Assembly: GCA_027066315.1 (NCBI GenBank)
Contig: JAMONZ010000049.1
Location: forward strand, 1-40,270
Length of the DNA: 40,270 nucleotides
Origin: Hyphomicrobiales bacterium
Lineage (GTDB): Bacteria; Pseudomonadota; Alphaproteobacteria; Rhizobiales; Devosiaceae
Reading direction: 5' to 3'
The translations under genes and the position numbers were made by a program. The notes under the pieces were generated by a model that searched no databases, was not told the DNA's origin, and saw only the letters and a list, made by a program, of their open reading frames with translations. Within the stretch, counting starts at the first letter, position 1; the number at the start of each line of letters is the position of its first letter. Below are positions 6,551-39,250 of this stretch, piece by piece.

Positions 6551-7018
6551 TTAATTTATAGCTTTTTTAGCGGGTTTTTTCTTTGTTAAATCAGCATCGC
6601 CGCCAATTGCAATTCTGCGAGTTTTCTTACTCTCAGGCACTTCTCGCTTTAGCTCAATATTTAGTAAGCCATTTACAAGGTCAGCACTTGTTACCTCGAC
6701 ATAATCGCCAAGCTGAAAACGCAAATCAAAGTCACGTTCAGCAATGCCACGATGCAAAAATTCACGCTCATTTTGATTGATAGTGCTAACTTTTGACCCC
6801 TTTATTTTCAAGCTGGTTTCTTTGGTTTCAATTTCAATATCTTTTATTGAAAAACCAGCAACAGCAACAGATACAAGCCAAGTATCTTCGCTTTTTCTCT
6901 CAATATTATAGGGTGGGTAGGGTTTTGTTTCTTGAGAGTTAAGATTGTCAAGATTGTTAAATAATTTATCAAAGCCAACGGTAGAGCGAAGGAATGGTGA
7001 AAAATCTAAAGTTTGCAT
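6551..7018 (-). CDS. Small heat-shock protein, Hsp20/alpha-crystallin family (IbpA-like)
   Basis: This is an ATP-independent holdase chaperone that binds unfolding proteins during heat stress and hands them to DnaK/ClpB. The 155-residue protein starts MQTLDFSPFLRSTVGFDKLF, typical of class A rhizobial/IbpA-like proteins. An alpha-crystallin domain covers roughly residues 35-130, with LVNGLLNIELKREVPE as the conserved beta-8/beta-9 region. A C-terminal I-X-I motif (RIAI) used in oligomer assembly precedes a short Lys-rich tail. The frame is open to 7090, but the ATG at 7018 has AAGGAGAA eight bases upstream and the expected N-terminus. The upstream region carries a heat-shock-type promoter and a folded leader, described separately; together they predict control by both sigma-32 and an RNA thermometer. 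Confidence 0.93.
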   Translation of the reverse strand: MQTLDFSPFLRSTVGFDKLFNNLDNLNSQETKPYPPYNIERKSEDTWLVSVAVAGFSIKDIEIETKETSLKIKGSKVSTINQNEREFLHRGIAERDFDLRFQLGDYVEVTSADLVNGLLNIELKREVPESKKTRRIAIGGDADLTKKKPAKKAIN

Positions 7019-7143
7019 AATTAAAGTTCTCCTTAAATAAAAGTTGTTGAGCAACTTAGTTTCTCGTAACTTTGAGCAATAAAAACCCATACATTATGGC
7101 GAGTTTATTCCTGAGCCACGTTTCCTGAATAATTTCAGCGAAC
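7019..7143 (-). promoter_or_regulatory. ROSE-like RNA thermometer in the hsp20 leader
   Basis: Read on the minus strand, the leader is about 125 nt and contains three hairpins: CUGAA/UUCAG (7125-7138), CCAUA/UAUGG (7087-7099) and one next to the start codon. In the last, AAGUUGCUC (7049-7057) pairs with GAGAACUU (7024-7031) over eight base pairs if a single G is bulged, which occludes part of the AAGGAGAA ribosome site. ROSE elements upstream of rhizobial small heat-shock genes characteristically use a U-U/C-G-C-U strand with a bulged G opposite the Shine-Dalgarno. The position before an Hsp20 gene, the length and the multi-hairpin layout all agree. The pairing is seen in the sequence; thermosensing is inferred. 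Confidence 0.72.
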
Positions 7144-7150
7144 AATTAAA

Positions 7151-7178
7151 ATGTAGGTAGGTATTTTTTTGTTTCAAG
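7151..7178 (-). promoter_or_regulatory. Sigma-32 (RpoH)-type promoter of hsp20
   Basis: On the minus strand CTTGAAAC (7178-7171) is followed after 13 bases by CCTACAT (7157-7151). This resembles the CTTGAAA / CCCCAT-type heat-shock promoter and the relaxed alphaproteobacterial form. The implied transcript start near 7143 gives a leader of about 125 nt, right for a ROSE element. Confidence 0.62.
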
Positions 7179-7255: not shown

Positions 7256-7400
7256 TATTTTGTGCAGACAAAAAAAGGCAATGGTGCTTTTTCTTTTATG
7301 CACCGATGACCAACTAAATGCTGTAACTCCCCCCACTTCAGCATTTAGTAAATATAAAAGACCAGCTTTCCTAAATAAAAAGGAATAGCTGGTCTTTTTT
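7256..7400 (+). ncRNA. Candidate intergenic small RNA with C-rich loop
   Basis: The interval lies between the hsp20 promoter and the alpha/beta hydrolase and has no credible reading frame. It contains three successive hairpins: GGTGC/GCACC (7283-7304); a perfect 10-pair stem CTAAATGCTG/CAGCATTTAG (7314-7348) presenting a 15-base loop with CTCCCCCCAC; and a strong rho-independent terminator (7356-7400). A possible -35 (TTGAGA, 7225-7230) lies upstream, with only a weak -10. Alphaproteobacterial trans-acting small RNAs often expose C-rich loops that can pair with purine-rich ribosome sites. The 5' end given here is a guess. It could instead be the leader of the hydrolase gene. Confidence 0.45.
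7356..7400 (+). terminator. Rho-independent terminator upstream of the alpha/beta hydrolase
   Basis: AAAAGACCAGCT (7356-7367) pairs with AGCTGGTCTTTT (7387-7398), with an inner TTCCT/AGGAA pairing, and is followed by a T-run. It ends about 100 bases before the hydrolase start and no protein gene precedes it on this strand, so it must terminate a non-coding transcript or attenuate the hydrolase leader. Confidence 0.8.
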
Positions 7401-37459: not shown

Positions 37460-39250
37460 ATGAATAACCAATTTGGCAATTTACCTCAATGGGATCTAAG
37501 CGACCTCTATCCTTCACCCAATTCAAAAGAATTTGAAACAGACCTAAAGAAAGCTCAAGCTGATGCAAAACTCTTTGAGGAAAAATATAAGGGTAATCTA
37601 GCAAATATTACTCAACAAAATAAATTAATTGAGGTAATTGCCCTTTTTGAAAAACTTAGCGACTTAATAGGACGTATTGGCTCTTTTGCATATTTGAACT
37701 ATGTGCTTAACACTGCCGACCCAGAGCGGGTAAAATTTTTGGGTGACACTCAAGAAGCATTAACTAGCCTTTCATCTCACACAATATTCTTTTCATTAGA
37801 ATTAAATCAAATCAAAGAAAAAACCCTGCTAGAGGCTTTTGCAAATGATAAGGCCTTGGCACGATATAAGCCTTGGTTTGATGAATTAAGAAAAGCAAAA
37901 CCCTATCAGCTTGAAGAGCGGGTTGAAGAATTATTTATTGATAAATCACTTACGGGCAGAGGGGCATGGAATCGTTTATTTGACGAAACAATGGCCTCGC
38001 TAAAATTTAATGTTGCAGAGCAAGACTTAGGTCTAGAGATGACCTTGACGCTTTTAACAGACAAAAAAGAAGAAAATCGCAAAAACGCCTTTGAAGCAAT
38101 TGTAAAAACTTTAAAAGAAAATCAGCGACTTTTTACTCACATTTCAAACGTGTTAGCAAAAGACAAAGAAATTTCAGATCGCTGGCGCAAGTTTGAAGAT
38201 GTTGCTGACAGTCGCCATTTGGCAAATTCGGTTGAAAGAGAAGTTGTTGATGCGCTGCAAACTGCGGTGCAAAAAGCCTATCCAAAACTCTCACATCGAT
38301 ATTATGCAATGAAGGCAAAATGGCTTGGGAAAGACAAGCTAAACGCATGGGATAGAAATGCCCCACTGCCAACTTCAAGTGATACAATATATGAATGGGG
38401 TGAGGCGAAAAAAATTATACTTGAGGCTTATGGTAATTTTTCACCAAAATTAGCAAAAATTGCTGAACCTTTTTTTGATAGCGGCTGGATTGATGCGCCA
38501 GTTGTTCAAGGCAAAGCACCAGGGGCTTTTGCCCACCCAACTGTTCCATCTGCTCACCCATATTTAATGTTAAATTATTTGGGCAAGGCACGTGATGTAA
38601 TGACACTTGCACATGAATTAGGTCATGGTGTGCATCAAGTTTTGGCCGCCCCTCAAGGTGCATTAATGGCCTCAACCCCATTAACACTAGCCGAAACAGC
38701 CTCGGTATTTGGTGAAATGCTAACCTTTCGCTCATTGCTTGATGGTGCAAAAACTCCAAAAGCTCGGTTTGCACTTTTAAGTCAAAAAGTTGAAGACATG
38801 CTCAACACAGTTGTGCGCCAGATTGCCTTTTATACTTTTGAGAGAGAATTGCACAATGCCAGACGAAAGGGCGAATTAAAGACAGAGGAAATCAACCAGA
38901 TTTGGTTAGATGTTTCAAAAGAAAGCCTTGGTGATGCAGTTGAATTAAACGATGGATATGAGATTTTTTGGTCTTATATCCCCCATTTCATTCATTCACC
39001 TTTTTATGTTTATGCCTATGCTTTTGGTGACTGTCTGGTCAATTCGCTTTATGCAAAATATCAAGAAGAGCCAGAAGGTTTTGAGCAAAAATATTTTGAC
39101 CTATTAAAAGCAGGTGGATCAAAACATCATTCACAATTATTAAAACCTTTTGGCCTTGATGCCAAAGATAAAGACTTCTGGTCGCTTGGCCTATCAATGA
39201 TTGAAGGTATGATTGATGAATTAGAAATTTTGCAACAAGAAATAAGCTAA
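37460..39250 (+). CDS. pepF: M3 family oligoendopeptidase (PepF/M3B type)
   Basis: A cytoplasmic zinc metallopeptidase that cuts short peptides, 596 residues, the normal length for oligoendopeptidase F. The N-terminal WDLSDLYPSPNSKEFETDLKKA opens the M3 helical domain. The zinc site HELGH is at His385-Glu386-His389 within TLAHELGHGVHQ, and the third ligand Glu lies downstream in TLAETASVFGEML. C-terminal conserved blocks include FYVYAYAFGDCLVNSLYAKY. It would break down peptides, including any imported by the Opp system 11 kb away. The ATG at 37460 has GAAAGATTATA upstream, a weak site. It is divergent from the response-regulator gene; the 195-base gap shows no clear operator. Confidence 0.94.
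   Translation: MNNQFGNLPQWDLSDLYPSPNSKEFETDLKKAQADAKLFEEKYKGNLANITQQNKLIEVIALFEKLSDLIGRIGSFAYLNYVLNTADPERVKFLGDTQEALTSLSSHTIFFSLELNQIKEKTLLEAFANDKALARYKPWFDELRKAKPYQLEERVEELFIDKSLTGRGAWNRLFDETMASLKFNVAEQDLGLEMTLTLLTDKKEENRKNAFEAIVKTLKENQRLFTHISNVLAKDKEISDRWRKFEDVADSRHLANSVEREVVDALQTAVQKAYPKLSHRYYAMKAKWLGKDKLNAWDRNAPLPTSSDTIYEWGEAKKIILEAYGNFSPKLAKIAEPFFDSGWIDAPVVQGKAPGAFAHPTVPSAHPYLMLNYLGKARDVMTLAHELGHGVHQVLAAPQGALMASTPLTLAETASVFGEMLTFRSLLDGAKTPKARFALLSQKVEDMLNTVVRQIAFYTFERELHNARRKGELKTEEINQIWLDVSKESLGDAVELNDGYEIFWSYIPHFIHSPFYVYAYAFGDCLVNSLYAKYQEEPEGFEQKYFDLLKAGGSKHHSQLLKPFGLDAKDKDFWSLGLSMIEGMIDELEILQQEIS

Follow-up and report, generated by a model that had tools for sequence, protein, structure and literature searches.

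ROSE-like RNA thermometers are defined by a U(U/C)GCU motif that pairs with the Shine-Dalgarno (SD) sequence across a bulged G (PMC3669281; PMC11342760), and the role of the hairpins upstream of this pairing has been described as not understood (PMC3669281). Among the closest described systems, the rhizobial ROSE element of small heat-shock genes (Rfam RF00435) resembles the leader studied here in its place before Hsp20 in the same order, in the UUGCU and single bulged G of its SD hairpin, and in two stable upstream hairpins. The Pseudomonas ibpA ROSE-like elements (PMC3669281) and gammaproteobacterial ROSE_2 (RF01832) likewise precede a small heat-shock gene and use U(U/C)GCU-SD pairing, although the Pseudomonas ibpA elements have two hairpins rather than three (PMC3669281). 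UUGCU and one bulged G are also found in the ROSE-like element of Providencia stuartii oppF (PMC11342760). Unlike our hsp20 leader, however, the oppF element (PMC11342760) and ROSE-G (PMC12857270) lie before ABC transporter genes, and ROSE-G combines CUGCU with opposing bulged Gs, neither of which was seen here. A literature search found no Devosia paper with an RNA thermometer. In this study, we compared these systems with the hsp20 leader in a 40,270-nt stretch of DNA, referred to as the window, and we conclude that this leader is very probably a real, conserved ROSE-like RNA thermometer.

The gene downstream of the leader is the sole Hsp20 match in its own genome (1.99 Mb, 98.7% complete), and the closest NCBIfam family to its protein is IbpA, with a score under the NCBIfam cut-off. 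The earlier note had placed a heat-shock promoter, CTTGAAAC-N13-CCTACAT, before this gene, and its coordinates are right. Read as CTTGAA-N15-CCTACAT (7178-7151), the promoter sequence has one mismatch to the S. meliloti RpoH1 consensus, CTTGAA-N15-16-CCTATAT, as quoted in PMC4843759. The pattern was found just twice genome-wide (the reversed control pattern gave one match), and the same genome carries an rpoH gene (361 bits). Nearly all orthologous hsp20 leaders are preceded by the same promoter, with a spacing of 13-14 nt. By its match to the consensus, this putative promoter is of the RpoH (sigma-32) type. If transcription starts 6-7 nt past the -10 element, the leader would be ~126 nt long, against the ~125 nt originally proposed. 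The features of the locus are collected in Table 1. In the intergenic region that separates the Hsp20 gene from a divergently oriented hydrolase gene, we also noted two strong, terminator-like inverted repeats within 7315-7400 on the minus strand, AAAGACCAGCTATTCC..GGAAAGCTGGTCTTT and TAAATGCTG..CAGCATTTA.

Table 1. Features of the hsp20 locus in window coordinates.
Feature	Position	Strand	Basis
-35 element CTTGAAAC, putative RpoH-type heat-shock promoter	7171..7178	minus	likeness to RpoH1 consensus
-10 element CCTACAT	7151..7157	minus	13-nt spacer to CTTGAAAC
5' untranslated leader, probable ROSE-like element, ~126 nt	7019..7144	minus	start inferred 6-7 nt after -10; R1 match
Hairpin I, GUUC-[G]-CUGAA..UUCAG-GAA(A)C, bulged G7139	7120..7143	minus	predicted fold; homologous hairpin of relatives with invariant bulged G
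Hairpin II, a long stem with its apex at C-[G]-CCAUA..UAUGG-G (7103-7086)	7065..7120	minus	fold predicted at -17 kcal/mol (37 C)
Anti-SD arm of hairpin III, AAGUUGCUC, ROSE motif UUGCU (7054-7050), bulged G7052	7049..7057	minus	invariant block in genus; G in 35/35 leaders
SD and 3' arm of hairpin III, AAGGAGAACUU	7024..7034	minus	complementary to 7057-7049; compensatory changes among 47 leaders
Window-specific rival pairings, AAGUUG/CAACUU (3' arm 7046-7041) and UUAAGG-AGAA-CUUUAA (7036-7021)	7021..7046	minus	local minimum-energy fold
Hsp20 gene (IbpA/HspA-type small heat-shock protein), 155 aa	6551..7018	minus	ATG at 7018; PF00011, 53.9 bits

The central claim about this leader was that the SD is held in an eight-pair helix with one bulged G, and the arms, coordinates and pairs were exactly as described. 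The strands AAGUU(G)CUC and GAGAACUU (7031-7024, minus strand) of hairpin III can form eight Watson-Crick pairs around G7052, a pairing that lies over the hsp20 SD, AAGGAGAA (7034-7027). The exact bulged-G Watson-Crick helix appeared in 0 of 3000 dinucleotide shuffles of the leader, but once G-U pairs were permitted and any 8-bp helix carrying a single 1-nt bulge was counted, 30% of the shuffles had one. Because these looser helices are common in shuffles of an AT-rich leader, pairing within a single sequence is weak evidence, and it is the relatives that decide. Measured against the literature on ROSE-like elements, which describes three to four hairpins in a small heat-shock 5' UTR, the leader has three, before a PF00011 gene. 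Its 3'-most hairpin pairs U(U/C)GCU with the SD, although this pairing is not the minimum free energy (MFE) fold of the window, and a single bulged G, G7052, stands opposite the SD.

Comparison with Rfam, whose thresholds are 45 bits for RF00435 and 65 bits for ROSE_2, gave a different picture. A scan of the window and 20 loci at the gathering score returned no ROSE. RF00435 matched neither the window, at E values up to 10, nor the window's genus, and RF01832 gave nothing at the leader; the weak best match of RF01832 in the window (39177-39236) falls inside a long ORF and was rejected as chance. Thus, the Rfam ROSE covariance models, which the earlier note had set in advance as a test able to refute its reading, did not match the window leader even at permissive thresholds. 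In genomes of other genera, RF00435 gave sub-threshold matches of 17-36 bits, most of them on orthologous leaders directly before Hsp20. In the reverse direction, our own covariance model R1, described below, recovered 12/12 of the RF00435-positive loci tested, nine at E < 0.1 and three only at E 0.15-0.43. As the leader has the features given in the literature and falls under the Rfam score, we class it as ROSE-like but outside RF00435. Beyond the score, it differs from RF00435 in being AT-rich with a 17-nt loop and in having the SD GGAGAA rather than GGAGGA. With this SD, both U residues at the start of UUGCU have an A as partner, so there is no U-G wobble such as that reported in several ROSE elements (PMC12857270). 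The unpaired G after the outer stem of hairpin I is shared with the Rfam consensus, whereas the bulged G in the family's hairpin II is absent from it.

The orthologous leaders cover four genomes of the window's genus, further genera of its family, and additional families within the order. R1 was built on an alignment (A1) of 19 other-genus leaders, with the window's genus held out, and R2 is its sequence-only version. Searched against the 40-kb window, R1 gave a single match at 7150-7016 on the minus strand (42.2 bits, E 5.8e-9), which was also the single match in the window's whole genome (E 2.9e-7). R2 scored the window leader at 16.8 bits, indicating that ~25 bits were contributed by structure. 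Across the family, R1 matched in 124/136 genomes in a scan whose strict filters missed the window's own genome, which a thorough scan recovers; in every case with a mapped ortholog, the best matches end where Hsp20 starts. One genus genome, G003, had no R1 match in the whole-genome scan and scored 33 bits when its locus alone was searched. Second weak R1 matches in G002 and G001, which lie inside genes or away from genes, were rejected as chance. By these searches, almost all genomes of the family, in which Rfam is nearly silent, would carry a ROSE-type thermometer. Because the family's elements are mostly missed by Rfam, thermometer counts based on Rfam are probably too low for the order.

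Compensatory changes in relatives, which had been named as a check, were found in all three hairpins. With U(U/C)GCU and the SD as the sole anchors, 47 leaders had U-A (32), C-G (11), or U-G (4) at the hairpin III pair preceding the bulge and U-A (20), C-G (13), or A-U (4) at the second outer pair; both patterns beat all 2000 shuffles, which ignore kinship. Beside the bulge, U-A and C-G were swapped, giving UUGCU/GAGAA in some of these leaders and UCGCU/GAGGA in others. In the A3 alignment, 96.4% of cells were paired and both sides had changed in 16/23 pairs, spread over all helices. Double-sided changes in A3 numbered 65 cells vs 12.7 in shuffles, the slid-partner controls collapsed, and A2 gave the same result, both alignments being fitted to the structure and so biased towards it. 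The two further upstream hairpins that had been proposed are predicted in the window as hairpins I and II, and their homologs covary in relatives, where the counterpart of hairpin II reads CUC-[G]-CC..GG-GAG with compensatory changes. The homology of the three hairpins is family-wide. Leaders of the genus are 53-63% identical, yet AAGUUGCUCAA is an unbroken identical block. The bulged G of hairpin III, the signature by which the SD pairing had been recognized as ROSE, was present in 35/35 aligned leaders, and an unpaired 5'-arm G followed by a paired C occurred in 33/33 leaders for hairpin I and 33/34 for hairpin II. Together, the comparative evidence, the reciprocal weak Rfam ROSE matches, and the RpoH1 consensus match support the proposal of a ROSE-like thermometer behind a heat-shock promoter.

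Some leaders departed from this pattern. Leader L011 is without the UUGCU motif, and in five family leaders, four of them from one genus, the outer pairs were not kept in the common register. In the four (L019, L024, L025, and L026), hairpin III has UUCUUGCUU in place of ACGUUGCUC, and the usual outer pairs seem to be replaced by a shifted register that has GUG/CAC on the outside. We also observed that the 3' arm of hairpin II (A3 columns 64-91; 7103-7086 in the window) is usually GGGAG, an SD-like sequence paired with CUC across a bulged G in the manner of hairpin III. This arm could represent a decoy, or a module that was duplicated.

The conservation of hairpins I and II, which equals that of hairpin III and extends to the same bulged G in each, would also be expected if the leader structure were kept for some other reason, such as mRNA stability, ribosome standby, or a site for a small RNA or a protein, with only RpoH sensing temperature. 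We consider this highly improbable, as functional ROSE-like thermometers are recognized in the literature by just such a conserved UUGCU/SD pairing with a bulged G, located ahead of a small heat-shock gene (PMC3669281; PMC11342760). A bolder extension of the ROSE-like reading, which we regard as rather unlikely, is that these leaders form a separate ROSE branch missed by Rfam. Such a branch would have the same 5'-arm bulged-G module in all three hairpins, the SD GGAGAA, upstream hairpins that are not just inert scaffolds, and, in the genus, a sensor hairpin that is perhaps a two-state switch. The large set of covarying leaders offers material for testing the unexplained upstream hairpins and the conserved bulged Gs.

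Folding energies were less favorable to the window copy. Its hairpin III loop of ~17 nt is the longest in the family, tied with L030, compared with 3-6 nt in most relatives. The SD helix, at -3.5 kcal/mol vs -5.3 kcal/mol for the local MFE (37 C), is not the minimum-energy fold, and its pair probability in the whole window leader with coding sequence was 0.00-0.02. The SD helix is the local MFE of three genus relatives, and it reaches a probability of 0.9-1 in most relatives with a tight loop, although exceptions exist. The long loop, the weakness of the helix against local rival hairpins, and a genome without a second Hsp20 could indicate that the window carries a decaying ROSE, inherited but with a sensor hairpin that loop growth and AT drift have weakened, leaving hsp20 mainly under RpoH control. 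This seems distinctly unlikely to us, given that both arms are perfectly preserved across the genus despite differences at 37-47% of leader sites, that the SD helix is the local MFE in sister species, and that hairpins I and II are preserved.

The rival pairings themselves suggest another scenario, in which the SD in the cold would be held either by the ancestral ROSE helix or by the AAGUUG/CAACUU and UUAAGG/CUUUAA hairpins, two mutually exclusive states that both partly occlude it. The rival pair is the local MFE, and its second small hairpin covers the AAGG of the SD. However, the CAACUU arm is absent from all genus relatives compared, such hairpins often arise by chance in AT-rich sequence, and the first small hairpin has a low probability in the full leader, making a two-state variant very unlikely. 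With the loop enlarged and nearest-neighbour folding favoring the rival hairpins, the case for a switch in the window comes from conservation and not from energy. Such folding omits non-canonical contacts and co-transcriptional folding, so the unfavorable energies lower the standing of the ROSE-like reading but do not overturn it.

Temperature was approached in the same way. Computed SD exposure between 20 and 50 C was nearly flat for most leaders, and we dropped the melting simulation as proof of thermometry, as most leaders were without a clear transition. With exposure this flat, folding is silent on thermometry, and we infer occlusion of the SD in the cell and its melting on warming from known ROSE elements. 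On that analogy, heat shock would lead RpoH to transcribe hsp20 from CTTGAA-N15-CCTACAT, and hairpins I and II would fold as stable scaffolds in the ~126-nt leader. In hairpin III, the UUGCU strand would pair with the SD across the single bulged G and exclude ribosomes at growth temperature; on warming, this hairpin would melt first, the SD would be exposed, and Hsp20 would be made. The SD helix reaches dG=0 at 58 C in the window vs a family median of ~65 C, and helix stability tracks G+C across the family (rho 0.51, p 0.003, kinship uncorrected). Since stability follows base composition, the lower melting point is no sign of a cooler host, and the suggestion that the AT-rich last hairpin may suit a cooler-living host found no support.

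Finally, one family genome carries a further Hsp20 copy with a full RF00435 match of 71 bits (L037, 1501-1595). The presence of a full Rfam ROSE at this further Hsp20 copy suggests that two ROSE subtypes coexist in one genome.
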